Of a stretch of DNA of 64,000 bases, positions 35,446 to 44,125 are shown one piece after another. This DNA is from an uncultured Ignavibacteriota bacterium (GTDB lineage: Bacteria > Bacteroidota > Ignavibacteria > UBA10030 > UBA8401), in assembly GCA_903861125.1 (NCBI GenBank), contig CAIOTF010000011.1, positions 1 through 64,000 of the forward strand, written 5' to 3'. A program made the translations under genes and the position numbers. The first letter of the stretch is position 1. Each line of letters begins with the position of its first letter. The notes under the pieces are model-generated. The model did no database searches and had not been told where the DNA came from. It worked only from the letters and a program-made list of their open reading frames with translations.

Positions 35446-37536
35446 TTAATATGCCGCTAATTTTTCCAATGCACTTGTTATATGGTGTTCCTGCGGAAGC
35501 ACCGCATTTTCAAGTGCCGGTGCAAACGGGATTGGTGCGTCAAGTGCCGCCACGCGGGCAAGAGGTGCATCCAGATTTTCGAAACACTCTTCGGCGATCT
35601 GCATTCCAATCTCTGCACCATAACCGCCGGTTCTGGTATCTTCATGAACAATAAGAACCTTCCCCGTCTTGCGTATGGAATTATATATCGTTTCTTTATC
35701 CCACGGTATCAGCGTACGCAGATCGATCACTTCAACACTGACCCCTTTTTCTTCCATCTTTCGCGCTGCTTCAATGGAACGCTGTACCATGAATCCCCAC
35801 GTAACAACCGTAATGTCGTTCCCTTCGCGTTTCACTTTTGCAAGACCGAATGGCAGACAATAATTTTCATCCGGCTCATTCGTCGCCGCAAATTGCTGCC
35901 GATACAATCCTTTGTGTTCACAAAATAGAACGGGATTATCCTCACGTATCGCGGTTTTCAACAATCCTTTTGCATCTGCAGCATTCGACGGCATCGCAAC
36001 CCATAGTCCGGGAACGTGCGTAAATATGCCTTCGATGCTTTGACTGTGATACAATCCGCCGCGGATATAGCCGCCTGAAGCAACACGGATCACCACAGGA
36101 CAACTCCAGTCACCATCGGTTCGGTATCTCATGTGTACCAACTCATCTTTTATCTGCATGAATGCAGGCCAGATGTAGTCGCCAAACTGTATTTCCACTA
36201 CAGGTTTGAAACCCCGAACAGCAAGACCGATTGCAGTTCCCATAATGCTAGCCTCTGCTAGCGGAGAATTGAAACACCGGTCGTTGCCGAACTTGTTTGT
36301 TAAATTTTTTGTTGCTGTGAATACTCCCCCCTTGCCATCTGCAACATCTTCACCGTACACAACCATTTTCGGATTCCGTTTCATCTCTTCGTGCAATGCA
36401 TGGTTGATCGCATCAACCATAACAATATTTTTTCCGGTATGTTCCGGTTCCACAAAATTTTCTTTTGGGATAAAAATATTCGGAGAAAATACATTCCGTT
36501 CAGCACTATCGGCAGTTGGACTTAACGCTGCTTCAGCATAATCAGCTGCATCCTCGACTTCCTTCTTCACATCTGCACGGATTGCTTCCAATTCTTTTAA
36601 GGAAGCATAACCGTTATTCACCAGATATTTTTCAAATTTCGGGATCGGGTCTTTCGCCTTGTCATCTTCGATCTCCTTAGCCGTCATATATTTTTTCGGG
36701 TCATCGGAGGATGAGTGCGGGAACAGACGAACACAGTGCGCCTCGATCATCGCCGGACCTTTACCACTGCGGCAATACTCCACCGCATCGACAGCCGCGC
36801 GATACGATTCGATAAAATCTGTTCCGTCAATGTCGTAAGTCTTCAAATTCGGATATGCACTATACAAACGTGCAACGGAACCGCCAACGATCTGGTCCTT
36901 CACAGGAACGGAGATCGCAAACTTGTTATTCTGCACACAAAAAATCACAGGAAATTTTTCGCGGCTCGCCCAGGAAACGGCTTCGGCAAATTCTCCTTCA
37001 CTGGTTGCCCCTTCACCGGATGAAACATACGTTACTTCATCCTTTCCCTCTTTCCGTGAACCCATCGCAGTCCCGACGGCCTGAAGGTATTGTGTTCCCG
37101 TTGGAGACGATTGTCCGACAATGCGGTATCGTTTATCACCATAATGCGAAGGCATTTGCCGTCCATGCGAAGAAGGACCTTCGATCCGGTGCATGTTTTC
37201 ACATAAAATATCTTTTGCCGTCGATCCAAGCGCCAGTGAGAATGCAAGATCCCGGTAGTACGGATACGCCCAATCGTATCCTGATTTCATTGCCATGGCA
37301 ATAGCAACTTGAGCAGCCTCGTGTCCTGGTCCGCTGATATGAAAAAGAATCTTCCCCTGCTTCAGCAGGTTCATTTCCTTCTCATCAATGGTGCGGGCAA
37401 GAACCATCGTGCGGTAGGCAAACAATAACCGCTCCGTATTCAGTTCGCCGATATGTGCATTCGCTTTTTTCATGAGACCATTGGAGTGCAGTGCAGATTT
37501 TTTCTTTCCCAACACATCCGTTTTTTTCGAAACCAT
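35446..37536 (-). CDS. Fused alpha-beta E1 of a 2-oxoacid dehydrogenase
   Basis: 696 residues. Residues about 30-350 are a complete E1 alpha (LLFAYRTMVLARTIDEKEM, WAYPYYRDLAFSLALG, SGEGATSEGEFAEAV, QNNKFAISVPV). Residues about 365-696 are a complete E1 beta (VDAINHALHEEMKRNPKMVVYGEDVADGKGG, SPLAEASIMGTAIGLAV, QFGDYIWPAFMQIKDEL). A short linker joins them with no frameshift. The ThDP-Mg motif reads GEG instead of GDG (Glu at residue 175). Such fusions occur in Bacteroidota and relatives and are usually annotated as 2-oxoisovalerate dehydrogenase. No E2 of its own adjoins; the nearest is the two-lipoyl E2. Substrate unknown, branched-chain 2-oxoacids favoured. Confidence 0.9.
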   Translation of the reverse strand: MVSKKTDVLGKKKSALHSNGLMKKANAHIGELNTERLLFAYRTMVLARTIDEKEMNLLKQGKILFHISGPGHEAAQVAIAMAMKSGYDWAYPYYRDLAFSLALGSTAKDILCENMHRIEGPSSHGRQMPSHYGDKRYRIVGQSSPTGTQYLQAVGTAMGSRKEGKDEVTYVSSGEGATSEGEFAEAVSWASREKFPVIFCVQNNKFAISVPVKDQIVGGSVARLYSAYPNLKTYDIDGTDFIESYRAAVDAVEYCRSGKGPAMIEAHCVRLFPHSSSDDPKKYMTAKEIEDDKAKDPIPKFEKYLVNNGYASLKELEAIRADVKKEVEDAADYAEAALSPTADSAERNVFSPNIFIPKENFVEPEHTGKNIVMVDAINHALHEEMKRNPKMVVYGEDVADGKGGVFTATKNLTNKFGNDRCFNSPLAEASIMGTAIGLAVRGFKPVVEIQFGDYIWPAFMQIKDELVHMRYRTDGDWSCPVVIRVASGGYIRGGLYHSQSIEGIFTHVPGLWVAMPSNAADAKGLLKTAIREDNPVLFCEHKGLYRQQFAATNEPDENYCLPFGLAKVKREGNDITVVTWGFMVQRSIEAARKMEEKGVSVEVIDLRTLIPWDKETIYNSIRKTGKVLIVHEDTRTGGYGAEIGMQIAEECFENLDAPLARVAALDAPIPFAPALENAVLPQEHHITSALEKLAAY

Positions 37537-37540
37537 TACG

Positions 37541-38248
37541 TTAGTTCTCCTCTACGGCAACTTCAGTGTGGTGAAGAAGTGATAAAAGTTGTTCCTTGGA
37601 AATCTGTTTGACCTCGAAGGAAAAAATATTGGAAAAATGTTTAATGAGATGCTGGTGAACATCTGCAATTTCAATCGTTTTTCCGAGAACATTTTGAAGT
37701 GATGTTATTCCTTTATGAAAAATTCCGCAGGGAATAATCCTGTCAAAGAAAGTCAGATCGGTGTTCACATTAAACGCAAACCCATGCATTGTGATCCATT
37801 TGCTGACTTTAACTCCTAACGCTGCGATCTTTTCATTCTTTACCCATACTCCTGTGAACTCTTTCTCTCTCCCCGAATCAATGCCGTAATCATTCAATGA
37901 TCGAATGATCATCTCTTCAAGTTCACGTAAATACCGATGGATATCAAGATAATGCTGATTCAGATCGAGGATCGGATAACCGACGATCTGTCCGGGCCCG
38001 TGAAATGTTACATCTCCTCCACGGTCGATCCAGAACATATCGATTTTCTTTTCGTTCAGTTCTTGTGTGTTTGCAAGAAGGTGATTTTCATCCGCTCCTT
38101 TTCCGAGAGTGAAAACCGGATCATGCTCCGTCAATATAAGCACATCGCCGATACGTTGAGCAAGACGTGCAGAAAATATCTGTTTCTGCAACTCCCACGC
38201 ATCAGCGTACTTTGTTCTTCCAATATTGACTACGAGCAGTTGTTTCAT
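37541..38248 (-). CDS. lipB: Lipoyl(octanoyl) transferase
   Basis: 235 residues. Family motifs are ALTEHDPVFTLGKG-like (LILTEHDPVFTLGKGA), GGDVTFHGPGQIVGYPILDL, VKNEKIAALGVKVSKWIT, and the catalytic region PCGIFHKGITSL with the acyl-thioester Cys and the Lys. It moves octanoate from acyl carrier protein to lipoyl domains, before LipA adds sulfur. It is 4 nt upstream of the fused E1 and 51 nt after lpd. The C-terminal roughly 25 residues are less conserved. Confidence 0.95.
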   Translation of the reverse strand: MKQLLVVNIGRTKYADAWELQKQIFSARLAQRIGDVLILTEHDPVFTLGKGADENHLLANTQELNEKKIDMFWIDRGGDVTFHGPGQIVGYPILDLNQHYLDIHRYLRELEEMIIRSLNDYGIDSGREKEFTGVWVKNEKIAALGVKVSKWITMHGFAFNVNTDLTFFDRIIPCGIFHKGITSLQNVLGKTIEIADVHQHLIKHFSNIFSFEVKQISKEQLLSLLHHTEVAVEEN

Positions 38249-38299
38249 TGTGAATATATTATTGAGACAGTTAAAACTTCGGAAATCGATTCCACACCG

Positions 38300-39691
38300 T
38301 TAAATGTGCAATGCGCGGCCATAGGCATCCAGCGCAGCTTCGGCAATACCTTCCGTTAGTGTCGGGTGTGCATGGATCGTTGTATAAAGCTGTTCAGCTG
38401 TAGTTTCGAGAGTTCTTGCTACGACAAGTTCTGCAATCATTTCCGTTGCTTCAGGTCCAATAATGTGTGCACCGAGCAGTTCTCCGTATTTTGCATCAAA
38501 GATCAGTTTTATCATTCCTTCGGTCTCATTCATAGCAAGGGCTTTACCATGCGAACGGAATGGATAGCGACCAACCTTAATCTCTTTACCTGCCGCTCGG
38601 GCTTTTTCTTCCGTCATACCCACGCTTGCCACCTGCGGCTGACAATACGTGCACCCTGGAATATTTCCATAATCAACAGCATGCGGATGTTTACCGGCAA
38701 TTGCCTCTACGCAAACGATCCCCTCATGCGAGGCTTTATGCGCGAGGCATGGCGGACCGGCAACATCACCGATCGCATAAATCCCTTCCACATTTGTCTT
38801 AAGATTTTTATCCACTTTGATGAACGATTTTTCGGTCTTCACACCAAGTGCTTCCAGTCCCAGGTTTTCAATATTCCCCTGGACGCCGATTGCACTCAAC
38901 ACGATATCCGCTTTTATCTCTTTCACTCCATCCTTATTGGAATATTTTATCGTCGCTTCTTTTCCGGTTGTGACACTTTCAACTTTTGTATCCACCAGCA
39001 CTTCTATCCCGGATTTTTCAAAATTACGGCGGAGGATTTTTGTAATCTCACGGTCTTCGATCGGCAGCAGACTGTCAAGCATTTCTATCAACGTGACCTT
39101 CGTTCCATACGCATTATAAATATATGCGAATTCAGAACCGATCGCTCCTGAACCGATGATCACCATTCTTTTCGGCACTTCAGGCAGAATCATTGCTTCG
39201 GTACTGGTGATGATCTGCTTATAGTCAATAGGAATATTTGGAAGAATACGCGGACGGGCACCCGTTGAAACAATGATATGTTGCGCACCGATCTTTTCTT
39301 TCTTTCCGCCGGTATCAACTTCTACAACGCCTTTGGCAATGATCTTTGCCGTTCCGTAGAGATGCTCTACTTTATTTTTTTTCAAAAGGAATTCGATACC
39401 TTTCGAACTTTTTGCCGAGATATCCCGGCTACGTTTCACCGCTTTTGAAAAATCCGCTTTCAAATTGTCGAATGAAAATCCGAAATCTTCAGCATGCTTG
39501 AATGTAGTAAGAACTTCTGCGTTTTTGATCAGCGCCTTTGTCGGAATGCATCCCCAATTTAAACAGATGCCACCGAGTTTATCTTTTTCAATAACAAGAG
39601 TTTTTAATCCTAATTGACCGGCTCGAATACCTGCAACATAACCCCCTGGTCCTCCGCCAATAACAATTACATCATACTGTTTGTCTGCCAT
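38300..39691 (-). CDS. lpd: Dihydrolipoamide dehydrogenase (E3)
   Basis: 463 residues. The FAD motif GGGPGGYVAGIRAGQLG is followed by the redox disulfide GGICLNWGCIPTKALI. The NAD motif is VIIGSGAIGSEFAYIY, the second FAD motif AIGDVAGPPCLAHKASHEG, and the active-site His-Glu pair lies in HAHPTLTEGIAEA. It reoxidises dihydrolipoamide on E2 and makes NADH. As the single E3 here it must serve PDH, the branched-chain complex and possibly a 2-oxoglutarate or glycine-cleavage complex elsewhere. It is the first gene of the operon, preceded by a leader with a terminator-like hairpin at 39714-39751. Confidence 0.97.
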   Translation of the reverse strand: MADKQYDVIVIGGGPGGYVAGIRAGQLGLKTLVIEKDKLGGICLNWGCIPTKALIKNAEVLTTFKHAEDFGFSFDNLKADFSKAVKRSRDISAKSSKGIEFLLKKNKVEHLYGTAKIIAKGVVEVDTGGKKEKIGAQHIIVSTGARPRILPNIPIDYKQIITSTEAMILPEVPKRMVIIGSGAIGSEFAYIYNAYGTKVTLIEMLDSLLPIEDREITKILRRNFEKSGIEVLVDTKVESVTTGKEATIKYSNKDGVKEIKADIVLSAIGVQGNIENLGLEALGVKTEKSFIKVDKNLKTNVEGIYAIGDVAGPPCLAHKASHEGIVCVEAIAGKHPHAVDYGNIPGCTYCQPQVASVGMTEEKARAAGKEIKVGRYPFRSHGKALAMNETEGMIKLIFDAKYGELLGAHIIGPEATEMIAELVVARTLETTAEQLYTTIHAHPTLTEGIAEAALDAYGRALHI

Positions 39692-39912: not shown

Positions 39913-39948
39913 TTGACTAGAGTGAACGAAATTTAGTATTTTATACTA
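39913..39948 (+). promoter_or_regulatory. Promoter with overlapping palindromic operator for zinc-ribbon gene and rpsU
   Basis: TTGACT (39913-39918) resembles a -35; TATTTT (39937-39942) at 18 nt is the likeliest -10. The -10 is embedded in a perfect palindrome TAGTAT-TTT-ATACTA (39934-39948), which could be a repressor site covering the start of transcription. The regulator is unknown. Confidence 0.45.
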
Positions 39949-40034
39949 GCACAATAACACAAAGGTAACCTTCGACACACACGTTGTTATTATTTTCGCG
40001 CGGCTAAAGCTGTTGCGAACGGAGAGTTGTATTT

Positions 40035-40409
40035 ATGAGCAAATCAAAATATGTAACACAAGTCTGTACCTCGTGCGGAAGAGAGTCGAAAATGGAGATT
40101 ATTGGTGAAGTTGTCGGAGCTGAAAATAAGGTCTGGTATCGGTGCACACGGTGTCATCATAGCATGATGCTCGATTCTGCAGCAAAGAAAAAAGAAGACA
40201 ATATCATCACCTATATCCGGGAAGATTGCGTTAACTATTCTCCTGAAAAAATCTTTGATGTCGGCGTTTCTATCTACCACACGGATTGGGACGACATGGG
40301 GAAAGTGACATCAAAAGAAAAGACATCCAGCGGCGGGAACGCTATTTGGGTTAAGTTTGAGAAAAGCGGCATTAAAAAATTGATTGAGAATTTACAATTA
40401 GCAGATTAA
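40035..40409 (+). CDS. Zinc-ribbon protein with UvrD/PcrA-C-terminal (Tudor-like) domain
   Basis: 124 residues. The N terminus is a zinc ribbon with two CxxC knuckles (C11-C14 and C37-C40, CTSC and CTRC). A basic linker (SAAKKKEDN) leads to a C-terminal domain at about 68-122. Its pattern FDVGVSIYHTDWDDMGKV ... IWVKFEKSGIKKLI matches the G..I.H..wG.G.V...I.V.Fe..G.K.L pattern of the small beta-barrel at the C terminus of UvrD/PcrA helicases, which binds RNA polymerase, and of CarD-like domains. So a small RNA-polymerase- or nucleic-acid-binding regulator is plausible. It is 34 nt upstream of rpsU and likely co-transcribed with it. I do not recognise a named family; domain similarity is by eye. 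Confidence 0.6.
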   Translation: MSKSKYVTQVCTSCGRESKMEIIGEVVGAENKVWYRCTRCHHSMMLDSAAKKKEDNIITYIREDCVNYSPEKIFDVGVSIYHTDWDDMGKVTSKEKTSSGGNAIWVKFEKSGIKKLIENLQLAD

Positions 40410-40443: not shown

Positions 40444-40641
40444 TTGGTAGGAATCGTTGTCAACGAAAATGAATCCATTGATCGTGCAATCAGACGCTTC
40501 AAGAAGAAATACGAACGATCCGGAGTTCTCAAAGAATTCAAAAAACGGACATTCTTCACAAAACCATCTGTGAAAAAACGTATGAAGTTGGTAAAGGCAG
40601 TACGCAGAAACCAACGCACTGAAGAAGAAGAAGCTATGTAA
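40444..40641 (+). CDS. rpsU: 30S ribosomal protein S21
   Basis: 65 residues. S21 features are VVNENESIDRAIRRFKKK, LKEFKKRTFFTKPS and a basic C-terminal helix ending in an acidic tail. The start codon is TTG, fixed by the strong AGGAGGTG 6-8 nt upstream and by the fit of the N terminus to the family; no ATG or GTG is available at that place. S21 is needed for efficient initiation on the 30S subunit. The gene ends at a strong terminator. Confidence 0.95.
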   Translation: MVGIVVNENESIDRAIRRFKKKYERSGVLKEFKKRTFFTKPSVKKRMKLVKAVRRNQRTEEEEAM

Positions 40642-40645
40642 AATG

Positions 40646-40674
40646 AAAACCCTCGCCGAGCGAGGGTTTTTTTT
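40646..40674. terminator. Strong intrinsic terminator after rpsU
   Basis: A 7-bp GC-rich stem CCCTCGC/GCGAGGG with a CGA loop is preceded by A4 and followed by T8. It lies between the convergent ends of rpsU and the dipeptidase gene, whose stop begins two bases after the T run, so it may serve both strands. Confidence 0.92.
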
Positions 40675-40675
40675 A

Positions 40676-41842
40676 TCATTTCATATTTGCTTTCAGTACT
40701 CTCATAACATTCCCGCCGAGAATTTTCTTTATATCTTTTTCCTTATACCCACGCTTCACCAATTCTTTTGTAATATTTGGAAGAAACGTTACGTCATCCA
40801 ATTCCAGAGGTAATGATTCTATCCCGTCAAAATCACTACCAATTCCCACATAATCAGTTCCGACGAGTTTTGCAATATAGTCAATGTGATCGATCAATTT
40901 CGAAAGAGGGGGCCGCGCCTCTGCATAAAATGGCGCCAGCACAGAATCAATCAGCATCTCACCTTTCCAAAAATCAGGGTTGGCTTTCTTGATCGAATCG
41001 ACGACCGGCATAAATTTATTTCTGATTTCCTTCACATGCGTAGAGAAACTGCTGTCAATGAAACCGGAATAAAAATTTACACAAATCACCCCTTTATTCT
41101 TTGCCACCGCCTTGATCTGATCATCCTTCACATTTCTGCGACCGGGACAGAGAGCATAGACTGATGAATGTGAAACAATAACTGGTTTATTGACAATGCT
41201 GATAGCATCCCAAAATGTTCGTTCCCCAACATGCGACAGATCGACCATGACACCAAGTTCATTCAATCGATGTACCACCTTCTTCCCAAACTCCGTCAAT
41301 CCTTTGAAGGATAAGGAATCTCCTTTTTCGGTCTCATCTGCCGCCGAAGTAGCCCACGACGTGCTGTTATTCCATGTCAGCGTCAAATAATTCATCCCCC
41401 GCTTTGCAAGAGAGTCAAGAAAGGCCAGACTATCCTCAATCATATGCCCTCCCTCTACCCCAATCAAAACTACCATCTTCTTTTGTTTCAAGATAGTTTG
41501 CATATCCTTAAAGTTTCTTGCAAAAACTGCTTTGTCAGCGCTGCGTTCTACAATGGCATTCAATGTATCAATCATTTGCACGGCTCGGTGAAACGCACGT
41601 CCGTTTCCATAATCCCCGCCGCACCAGATAGAAAATATCTGAACATCAACACCCCCCTCACGTAAACGGATTATATCCGAGTGACCTTGAGTCGTCCGTT
41701 TTGATAGTTCCTCACCGTTTAGCGCACGTAACAAAACATCATTATGCGTATCGACAACAATTGCTTCACGATGGATTTTTTTATAATCTGCCCCTAATAA
41801 TGTTACTGAACAGATCAAGACAAACAGTGCAAAATATTTCAT
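40676..41842 (-). CDS. Membrane-dipeptidase-type peptidase (family M19)
   Basis: 388 residues with an N-terminal signal peptide (YFALFVLICSVTLLGA). The binuclear zinc site of renal dipeptidase is complete: HND in VDTHNDVLLRAL, Glu in GVEGGHMIE, His in VDLSHVGERTF, His in VIVSHSSVYAL with the following CPGRRNVKDDQI, and Asp in GIGSDFDGIES. It hydrolyses L-X or L-D dipeptides in the periplasm or outside. AAAGGGG precedes the ATG by 4 nt. It is transcribed alone, bounded by terminators on both sides. In this genome it fits with the M1/M28 and M16 peptidases and the amino-acid permease as part of peptide use. Confidence 0.93.
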   Translation of the reverse strand: MKYFALFVLICSVTLLGADYKKIHREAIVVDTHNDVLLRALNGEELSKRTTQGHSDIIRLREGGVDVQIFSIWCGGDYGNGRAFHRAVQMIDTLNAIVERSADKAVFARNFKDMQTILKQKKMVVLIGVEGGHMIEDSLAFLDSLAKRGMNYLTLTWNNSTSWATSAADETEKGDSLSFKGLTEFGKKVVHRLNELGVMVDLSHVGERTFWDAISIVNKPVIVSHSSVYALCPGRRNVKDDQIKAVAKNKGVICVNFYSGFIDSSFSTHVKEIRNKFMPVVDSIKKANPDFWKGEMLIDSVLAPFYAEARPPLSKLIDHIDYIAKLVGTDYVGIGSDFDGIESLPLELDDVTFLPNITKELVKRGYKEKDIKKILGGNVMRVLKANMK

Positions 41843-41964: not shown

Positions 41965-43524
41965 TCACATAACAATACCAAGTTCTAATTTTTTGGTCGG
42001 TTTTTCCGGTTTCCCCGGCACCCCATATTGCTGCTTTTCGCTCTCGCGGAGGAGTGAATCGATATCAATTAGCTCATTTTCACGTTCCTTCATCTCCCGT
42101 ATTTTAGCATCGAATTCACGCTTCCGTGATGATGATTTAAACAATAACTTCATCTTGGGCTCACGCATCATTGAATCAACGACCTCAAGTCGGAACTCTC
42201 CTTTCGGAAGTCGCTTGAAAACCCGAACCGTTTGATCATTTGCTGGAAGTTCAAATGAGAATGCCGAATCTCCAATAACAGTTACTTGATTGATCAGATC
42301 GCTATTAGGATCTTGAATGCGGATTCTAGGTCGTACCATTTCTACCATTTCAATTTCAGGGGACGCAGCTTCCGCCGATCGTTCAAAATTTATTTGAAAT
42401 GCTCCGCTTGAAGATTGAACGTGAATGCGGTTTTCCCCCATTGTGACCATATTTTCTTCCGCCCGCCGCTGACGCTCTGCCAATTCTGCAACCATTCGTT
42501 CAGTAATATTCTTACGGTATTCCATTCCCTGCCGGCGTGCAACATCACGGATGCTGTCCATATTAATCGTCATTTCCGCAATCTCTATTGTTCCCGGAGA
42601 GATAACAACATAATTATTGCTTCTGGACATTTTCGGGATCTTATTCAGAATAACATGTGATGGCACTTTGGGGCTATTGACTGCAACGACAGCATAAGGA
42701 GCTTTCCTGATATCCAGATATTTTTGAAACCGCGACCTTTGCGGCGGTTCAAGACATGCAGCAATTGTAGAGACCATTGCGCGATTAAGATCTACAAGTT
42801 CGGCATGGATTGCTACTTCATCATTTTCACTGACGAGGACCGAAGCCTGAAGTCTTTCCTGGTACGATACAAGAATCGAATCTATAAGATCACGTTGATT
42901 GTCTGAAAATCCGATTTCGTTTGCAAAATCTTTCACCGTCACGGACGGCGCGGATATCGAATTATTACGAACGATCTGAATCTGTGATCCCTTGTCTTCT
43001 GTATTTTTGACCTGCAGCGATGTATTTTTTGATGAATCTATGGATAGACTCCCGAACAAAGCAAAATTCAACACATCGTCTTTATTAAGATTCGTAAACA
43101 ATGGCAGAATATTCCCCGTCATTATATTATTGCGGTACACATTTTCCGCCTGAATTTTATTTTCCAGAAAATATTGATTGAAAAACTGCGCATCTTTGAA
43201 ATAGATCGCAGTAATAACTAGGATTGCACCTGCGGTCAGTGATGCTAATGCAAATATCGGTTTTGCATTAGGCAAAAATCTCCGGGTGCGGAAGTCCTTT
43301 TCCTCTAACTTGTTCGATAATTTCAACCAGAACCAGTCGTTTTTGTGTAATTTTTCTTTTGAAGAGAGGGAACGTTTTGCGGTGCGCAATATTTCGATCT
43401 CGCGGGCAACGGCGGGATGTGTCGTAAGGTACTCTTCGAGTTTTTTTATTTCAACAGTATCCAGTTCACCGTCAATAAAAAGCGAAATGATCTGTTCTAA
43501 TTCTTTTTTTGTTAATTGATTCAT
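41965..43524 (-). CDS. Membrane anti-sigma factor with periplasmic Spy/LTXXQ-like region
   Basis: 519 residues. The first 55 resemble an anti-sigma N-terminal domain (ISLFIDGELD, EYLTTHPAVAREI) but have no HxxxCxxC zinc ligands. One transmembrane helix lies at about 90-109. Residues about 206-270 (FSDNQRDLIDSILVSYQERL ... LEPPQRSRFQKYL) resemble the helical Spy/CpxP/heavy-metal-resistance LTXXQ fold used by periplasmic stress sensors. The final 230 residues are charged, with a coiled-coil-like stretch (RMVAELAERQRRAEEN). It starts 1 nt after the ECF sigma stop. Probable role: hold the sigma factor at the membrane and release it on an envelope signal; that is inferred from gene order and domains. 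Confidence 0.75.
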   Translation of the reverse strand: MNQLTKKELEQIISLFIDGELDTVEIKKLEEYLTTHPAVAREIEILRTAKRSLSSKEKLHKNDWFWLKLSNKLEEKDFRTRRFLPNAKPIFALASLTAGAILVITAIYFKDAQFFNQYFLENKIQAENVYRNNIMTGNILPLFTNLNKDDVLNFALFGSLSIDSSKNTSLQVKNTEDKGSQIQIVRNNSISAPSVTVKDFANEIGFSDNQRDLIDSILVSYQERLQASVLVSENDEVAIHAELVDLNRAMVSTIAACLEPPQRSRFQKYLDIRKAPYAVVAVNSPKVPSHVILNKIPKMSRSNNYVVISPGTIEIAEMTINMDSIRDVARRQGMEYRKNITERMVAELAERQRRAEENMVTMGENRIHVQSSSGAFQINFERSAEAASPEIEMVEMVRPRIRIQDPNSDLINQVTVIGDSAFSFELPANDQTVRVFKRLPKGEFRLEVVDSMMREPKMKLLFKSSSRKREFDAKIREMKERENELIDIDSLLRESEKQQYGVPGKPEKPTKKLELGIVM

Positions 43525-43525
43525 T

Positions 43526-44125
43526 TTATACCAAAATAGGCATCAAAATTTCCTTCAGCATAGTTCGTCCGCGCGACAATCGTGATTTCACCGTACCAAC
43601 TTCACAATCCAATACCTCGGCGATTTCATCGTATGACATCCCGTCGATATCCTTTAATATGATCGGCATACGAAATTTTTCCGGAATCTTCTTCAATGAT
43701 TCCTCTATAACGCCGCGCATATTCTCATCGTCAAACGTTGTCGTGGCAAAATTTTCAATTTTGAGGTTCGTTGTTTTTTCAAAACTATGGAAACTGAAAA
43801 ACCGTTTAACCTTTTTTTTCCGCAGTTCATCCCGGCATTTATTCACTGCAATCCGGTATACCCATGTGTAAAAAGAAGATTCGAAACGGAATTTGGGGAG
43901 AGCTTGATAAACCTTGATAAATATTTCTTGCGAAATGTCATCCACAAGATCCGTATCATTGAATATCGAAAATATTATATTTCGGACTTTCTCCTGATAG
44001 CGTTCGACCAAATATCGAAAAATTTCCTTCTCCCCGTTCTGAAAAAGCGTAATCAACGCATCATCGCTTTTCTGAGCATGCGGGATATTGGCATCAATAA
44101 GATTGATAACTGCTGGTTTCGCCAT
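43526..44125 (-). CDS. ECF-type RNA polymerase sigma factor
   Basis: 199 residues, typical for sigma-70 family group 4. Region 2 is visible as LFQNGEKEIFRYLVERYQEKVRNII, DDISQEIFIKVYQAL and FRFESSFYTWVYRIAVNKCRD. Region 4 is IPEKFRMPIILKDIDGMSYDEIAEVL with the helix-turn-helix GTVKSRLSRGRTMLKE. It directs RNA polymerase to stress-type promoters. It is coupled to the membrane anti-sigma gene downstream. No obvious ribosome-binding site precedes the ATG, although the leader is A/T-rich. Confidence 0.95.
   Translation of the reverse strand: MAKPAVINLIDANIPHAQKSDDALITLFQNGEKEIFRYLVERYQEKVRNIIFSIFNDTDLVDDISQEIFIKVYQALPKFRFESSFYTWVYRIAVNKCRDELRKKKVKRFFSFHSFEKTTNLKIENFATTTFDDENMRGVIEESLKKIPEKFRMPIILKDIDGMSYDEIAEVLDCEVGTVKSRLSRGRTMLKEILMPILV

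Follow-up and report, generated by a model that had tools for sequence, protein, structure and literature searches.

What a small protein that joins a zinc ribbon to a Tudor-like barrel does beside rpsU, the gene for ribosomal protein bS21, is the question raised by one locus in the window, that is, in the whole stretch of 64,000 nucleotides of DNA that was analysed. The 4.19-Mb genome carries one copy of the gene, in the following setting:

39913..39942, plus strand: sigma-70-like promoter TTGACT-18-TATTTT before the zinc-ribbon/Tudor gene; TTGACT kept in 14/15 aligned leaders
39960..39974, plus strand: palindrome CAAAGGTAACCTTCG; present in the window, not conserved
40035..40409, plus strand: zinc-ribbon/Tudor gene, 124 aa, ATG start, single copy in the genome
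40035..40184, plus strand: N-terminal ribbon, residues 1-50; four Cys in 87/116 distinct members, strands in the AlphaFold model
40065-40067, 40074-40076, 40143-40145 and 40152-40154, plus strand: ribbon cysteines C11, C14, C37 and C40, two CxxC pairs
40248..40394, plus strand: putative PcrA/UvrD-type Tudor barrel, residues 72-120, from Pfam, hhalign and AlphaFold models
40278-40280, 40287-40289, 40374-40376 and 40380-40382, plus strand: predicted contact residues H82, W85, K114 and L116, corresponding to PcrA H681, W684, K712 and L714
40429..40437, plus strand: extended Shine-Dalgarno (SD) sequence AGGAGGTGA of rpsU; -17.2 kcal/mol for pairing of the leader with the 16S tail, which is of the usual type
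40444..40641, plus strand: rpsU, ribosomal protein bS21, TTG start; PF01165 1.8e-19, TIGR00030 1e-19
40645..40671, plus strand: intrinsic terminator, end of the two-gene unit

Only 34 nt separate the zinc-ribbon/Tudor gene from rpsU in the window, and the long flanking ORFs (38300-39691 and 40676-41842) lie on the opposite strand, so that the unit appears to comprise these two genes, which probably share one transcript. A promoter with a palindrome ahead of the pair had been proposed in the first-pass annotation. Both elements are present in the window and the TTGACT box recurs in nearly all aligned leaders, but promoter-like sites turn up equally often after shuffling (3 found versus a mean of 3.0), and the palindrome arms AAGGT/ACCTT are intact in 1/15 leaders, that of the window itself. 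The palindrome was therefore rejected as an operator or regulatory element, because it is not conserved. A structured leader RNA element was likewise rejected, the leader being no more structured than its shuffles (z -0.29), and an Rfam search of the leader returned no family at its gathering score.

The family to which the protein belongs is real and unannotated. Of 296 sampled genomes of the phylum, 123 contain it according to a profile (A1), far beyond chance, and 122 contain relatives found by BLAST. A contig scan over all phyla, with patterns tuned to close relatives, gave 115 relatives; the 80 that were listed come from entries titled Ignavibacteria(e), Ignavibacteriales, Ignavibacteriota, Bacteroidetes, Bacteroidota, Bacteroidia, Kapabacteria/Kapaibacterium, Chlorobi/Chlorobiota or plain bacterium, with the single exception of a MAG titled Armatimonadetes. 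Among the matches listed, the closest named relatives share 98-80% identity with the protein and belong to MAGs with the titles Ignavibacteriae, Ignavibacteriales, Bacteroidetes or Bacteroidota, so that an Ignavibacteriales-type genome is the most likely source of the window. A tblastn search of viral contigs with the window protein yielded no relatives. The protein scores above the cut-off of no Pfam or NCBIfam model, falling below those of the FmdB family (TIGR02605, 13.1 of the 31.3 bits needed) and of the ECs_2282 zinc-ribbon family (NF047912, 18.1 of 37 bits); its 124 residues match no helicase family in either library, the SF1A helicase motors being absent, and by sequence the PDB gave chance-level matches only, none of them convincing. 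Searches of open-licence papers yielded neither a characterised protein of the ribbon-Tudor architecture nor a tie of such a protein to rpsU. They agree with the earlier statement that this architecture is known from no characterised protein, and the family is unnamed in the libraries searched. The residue counts given here refer to 116 distinct members, retained from 130 loci after removal of duplicates.

The linkage to rpsU, noticed from the window alone in the first-pass annotation, proved to be a property of the family when the co-occurrence survey suggested there was carried out. An S21 gene lies downstream on the same strand in 128/130 loci, or 114/116 without duplicate proteins, at a median gap of 33 nt. 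One true exception was seen (L106, with no S21 within 3,994 bases after the gene), and in L124 the contig ends 86 bases after the zinc-ribbon/Tudor gene; in two loci (L012 and L038) other ORFs stand between the two genes. The only genome seen with two copies (G136) has the gene pair duplicated together, S21 lying beside both (G136:C5:386-952 and G136:C9:69493-70059). S21 itself was detected in 291/296 genomes, as against 123/296 for the zinc-ribbon/Tudor protein, which indicates that bS21 does not need this protein; the sole host genome without a detected S21 (G284) carries only the front part of the zinc-ribbon/Tudor gene. As judged from ORF ends, a universal-stress-like ORF precedes rpsU in 8 of 18 same-class genomes that lack the protein (family f5; L255, L257, L258, L260, L261, L263, L265 and L267).

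The two-knuckle zinc ribbon read from the window is borne out by the family, as all four cysteines of the pairs C11/C14 and C37/C40 are kept in 87/116 distinct members. In 28 further members C11 is replaced by Ser, C14 by Leu and C40 by Ser or Thr. These members retain C37 and the Tudor half, and all but L045 keep W34; the remaining member, L036, is a partial row. Since these 28 members have lost three of the four cysteines with the ribbon otherwise kept, one clade seems to retain the ribbon without the full zinc site. This cysteine-poor clade includes L022, L023, L025, L028-L030, L045, L047, L049 and L050 (29 listed, with L036 partial). The relatives L031-L044 (families f22, f24, f37 and f49) are longer, 177-231 aa as referenced, with uncertain starts and L036 partial; a long insert interrupts their ribbon, their C-terminus is extended by a basic tail, and in the rows read they carry Leu or Ile at the position of W85.

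For the C-terminal part, a resemblance to the RNA-polymerase-binding barrel of UvrD/PcrA had been suggested, to be checked by profile comparison and AlphaFold modelling, and both now agree with it at different levels of detail. PF21196, the PcrA/UvrD Tudor family, is the most-matched Pfam family, hit at E<=1 by 16/44 family members with a best value of 2.1e-5. Among 41 members taken singly (the window protein and 40 relatives, with L015, L019 and L032 left out of this comparison), L046 alone passes the cut-off, with 24.7 versus 23.9 bits over residues 81-124. For the window protein alone no match to PF21196 is obtained even at E 10, and the Tudor resemblance therefore becomes visible only together with its relatives. 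When the Tudor half was aligned by hhalign to 28 UvrD-like tails of the same phylum, a probability of 44 was reached (E 2.3e-4, 45 columns); none of 40 column-shuffled decoys exceeded 6.7, and the ribbon half scored 0.14. In sequence the barrel is thus probably nearest to the Tudor domain of PcrA/UvrD, and the specific evidence lies at this level.

The structure models are more general in what they indicate. AlphaFold gave a mean pLDDT of 80.8 and a pTM of 0.48 for the whole protein, and 85.2 and 0.67 for the Tudor part alone, with four strands of at least three residues. Foldseek with the Tudor part placed 5dma (the PcrA Tudor) second, at E 0.21 and probability 0.99, with nothing below 0.001, and with the whole model it gave no match at or below E 0.001. 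In VIA, 5dma ranked 22nd for the Tudor part (Z 5.4, rmsd 2.8, 47 aligned), tied with EF-P, eukaryotic Tudors and CarD, whose rows have Z 5.4-5.6. For the whole model, 7egs_B (Z 5.6, rmsd 2.3, 47 aligned; 7EGS is the UvrD CTD bound to the RNAP lobe), 9dqs and 5dma came within the first seven, beside a designed SH3 and ribosomal rows; 7egs was not among the best 50 VIA matches listed for the Tudor-only model. The ribbon half of the model gave L44E-type ribosomal and Tudor-like matches at Z about 5, which are not decisive. Structure comparison of the models therefore supports a small SH3/Tudor-like barrel, but no specific one.

Whether the barrel could bind RNA polymerase may be judged from its contact face. 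Binding of RNAP by the CTD of Geobacillus stearothermophilus PcrA is severely impaired by each of the changes H681A, W684A, K712A and L714A (Sanders et al., 2017; PMC5397179). In the VIA superposition, residues 73-120 of the model align with 672-718 of 5dma; the numbering differs by 599 at first and by 598 towards the end, so that these four residues correspond to H82, W85, K114 and L116 of the window protein, and the hhalign alignment agrees on these positions for the UvrD tails. All four are identical to PcrA in the window protein. Across the 116 distinct members, position 82 is His in 115 and position 116 Leu in 115; position 85 is Trp in 90, Phe in 2, Leu in 23 and Ile in 1, and position 114 is basic throughout (Lys in 68, Arg in 48). 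The conservation of H82 and L116 may reflect structure alone, and the always-basic position 114 and mostly aromatic position 85 are for this reason the more telling.

On the polymerase side, the PcrA-CTD site is the sequence [VIL]-D-x-x-T-G-E-[VIL]-[VILT] in SI1 of RpoB (Urrutia-Irazabal et al., 2021; PMC8318588). The RpoB of the same genome contains VDRKTGEII, a strict match, and a genome-wide DNA scan with a degenerate form of the motif, which misses TTR leucine codons, found two matches, the one in RpoB and one in an ORF read as pyruvate phosphate dikinase. The motif is strict in 19/22 host genomes examined and in 20/29 genomes without the zinc-ribbon/Tudor protein, with TGE kept in the other 3 and the other 9, respectively. 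It was accordingly rejected as a discriminator between hosts and non-hosts; its presence in genomes with and without the protein means that the interaction is permitted, not proven. A UvrD-like helicase that carries a Tudor of its own is encoded separately, elsewhere in the genome.

We compared the protein with known bearers of such barrels. With the PcrA/UvrD Tudor (PF21196; PDB 5DMA and 7EGS) it shares a small barrel, a matching series of conserved residues, among them the RNAP-contact positions, and a docking motif in the beta subunit of the host. It differs from PcrA/UvrD in having no helicase motors and in being joined to a zinc ribbon, in staying below the Pfam cut-off in 40/41 members taken singly, and in K94 (116/116) and E118 (108/116), which are unconserved in the PcrA/UvrD tails in the alignments as read. 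DinX likewise carries a PcrA-like Tudor (DUF3553, PF12073) on a non-helicase as a proposed RNAP binder (PMC6511836), fused there to a Y-family polymerase instead of forming part of a small ribbon protein; with this precedent the zinc-ribbon/Tudor protein is no new category. The RNAP-interaction domains of CarD/CdnL and Mfd are also small Tudor-like barrels that bind RNAP beta. Their site, however, is the beta1 region, and the Mfd domain is described as having no apparent homology in sequence with the Tudor of PcrA (PMC5397179); among the matches listed, no family member matched the CarD/Mfd family of Pfam.

The second gene of the pair is itself distinguished by its translation signal. The genome has a 16S tail of the usual sequence. 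The window rpsU pairs with it at -17.2 kcal/mol, and the strongest pairing among 49 further long ORFs of the window, taken mechanically, is -13.2. Over 112 scored loci (two of the 114 linked loci were skipped, as no start could be placed), the median is -17.0, versus -6.1 for shuffled leaders, and values at or below -13 occur in 85/112 loci versus 1/112 shuffled leaders, the start with the best SD having been chosen in both. The chosen start is TTG in 73, GTG in 31 and ATG in 8, hence non-ATG in 104/112, mostly with an extended SD. Among the 19 loci with an SD above -9, 12 belong to the cysteine-poor clade, and in L070, L091 and L093, which have weak SDs, the starts look misplaced.

In Flavobacterium johnsoniae, ribosomes without bS21 gain the use of such an rpsU SD, autoregulation of bS21 has been inferred for many Bacteroidota, and the absence of bS21 alters which mRNAs are translated (McNutt et al., 2023; PMC9976891). 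The published criteria for autoregulation are an rpsU SD stronger than -13 kcal/mol that is also the strongest among ribosomal-protein genes (PMC9976891), and the window and the 85 loci above bear on the strength half of these. The window resembles F. johnsoniae in its strong rpsU SD and TTG start, and differs in that rpsU is reported to be transcribed alone there (PMC9976891) and is second in a two-gene unit here. An rpsU SD at or below -13 is also found in 11/18 same-class genomes without the zinc-ribbon/Tudor protein, and in a few of the other 7 the rpsU starts look misplaced. The extended SD was thus rejected as a consequence of the protein; the two are separable, and autoregulation does not need the protein. 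All Chlorobia are said to fall under the published criterion (PMC9976891), and if the cysteine-poor clade includes Chlorobia, its weak SDs would be at odds with that statement.

Based on these findings, we propose that the protein is a small RNAP-associated factor, a detached Tudor that would sit on the TGE hairpin of the beta subunit, keep UvrD off and be produced together with bS21, and we give this reading a probability of about 0.42. The C-terminal barrel, as a free PcrA/UvrD-type Tudor, would dock on the helicase interaction motif, the same site as is used by the PcrA C-terminus, and the bound protein would exclude UvrD from the elongating polymerase, which could limit backtracking or R-loop surveillance at well-translated transcripts. 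The N-terminal zinc ribbon, or the cysteine-poor ribbon of one clade, may contact nucleic acid or the ribosome, the protein thus having two parts with different partners. As it would be translated from the same two-gene transcript as bS21, its level would track the demand for completed 30S subunits, and competition with UvrD might in this way be coupled to ribosome completion. The PcrA Tudor is known as a helicase tether; free PcrA CTD and full-length PcrA compete for RNAP, and the free CTD, over-expressed in cells as an experimental competitor, raises R-loops (PMC8318588), so that a natural free Tudor may be expected to act likewise. Against docking on the polymerase stand the failure of the window protein to match PF21196 at E 10, a structure that indicates only a common small barrel, a docking motif nearly as common in non-hosts, and Leu in place of W85 in 23/116 members. 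That the protein is dedicated to occupying the helicase-docking site and, being made together with bS21, ties the access of UvrD to elongating polymerase to the supply of complete 30S subunits is a more specific claim, and we regard it as rather doubtful.

Linkage to a ribosomal-protein gene points to the ribosome at least as naturally as to the polymerase, and because the constant neighbour is such a gene, a ribosomal role is the main rival of polymerase docking. The ribbon and barrel would then have their binding site on rRNA or on the 30S platform and would assist in loading, protecting or replacing bS21, the Tudor-like residues being retained for another partner. The pairing in 114/116 distinct loci and the joint duplication in G136 fit such a role, as do the L44E-type rows among the matches of the ribbon half; ribosomal-protein ribbons, too, have lost cysteines with the rest of the ribbon kept, as in the 28 members described above. 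We nevertheless consider it unlikely, given the kinship to a polymerase-binding domain with its contact residues kept, and a bS21 that manages without the protein in most genomes in which it was detected. The gene order, the short gap and the extended SD would also suit a local regulator of the operon that binds rpsU mRNA or leader DNA and adjusts the output of bS21, and the UvrD CTD has been found to bind DNA non-specifically (PMC7585439). Yet the strong SD occurs in same-class genomes without the protein, and the leader offers neither a conserved palindrome, nor structure beyond its shuffles, nor an Rfam family at its gathering score, which makes local regulation quite improbable. An adaptor in DNA repair, which recruits or displaces UvrD partners bearing the TGE motif without acting on transcription, could be imagined from the Tudor of Bacillus subtilis PcrA, which also binds UvrB via the same motif (PMC8318588), and from the fusion of a PcrA-like Tudor to the DinX polymerase (PMC6511836); however, the UvrB of the same genome has no match even to the relaxed motif, and the constant neighbour is rpsU, so that we hold this to be very improbable.

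Under the preferred reading of a polymerase-docking Tudor, many bacteria would encode what is apparently a natural free PcrA-type Tudor, paired with the gene for bS21, and if this is true, it would be a transcription-translation coupling factor of a kind undescribed in the open-licence papers searched. The barrel and the rpsU pairing together hint at an unstudied link between the machineries of transcription and translation, and the candidate link between polymerase surveillance and ribosome composition is cheaply testable.

Other ORFs around the pair in the window were read from their translations. Upstream, minus-strand ORFs at 35446-39691 look like those for a fused 2-oxoacid dehydrogenase E1, a lipB-like protein and a dihydrolipoamide dehydrogenase. 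Further downstream, an ORF that reads as an ECF-type sigma factor (43526-44125, minus strand) adjoins a long ORF (41965-43524, minus strand), which may encode its anti-sigma partner.
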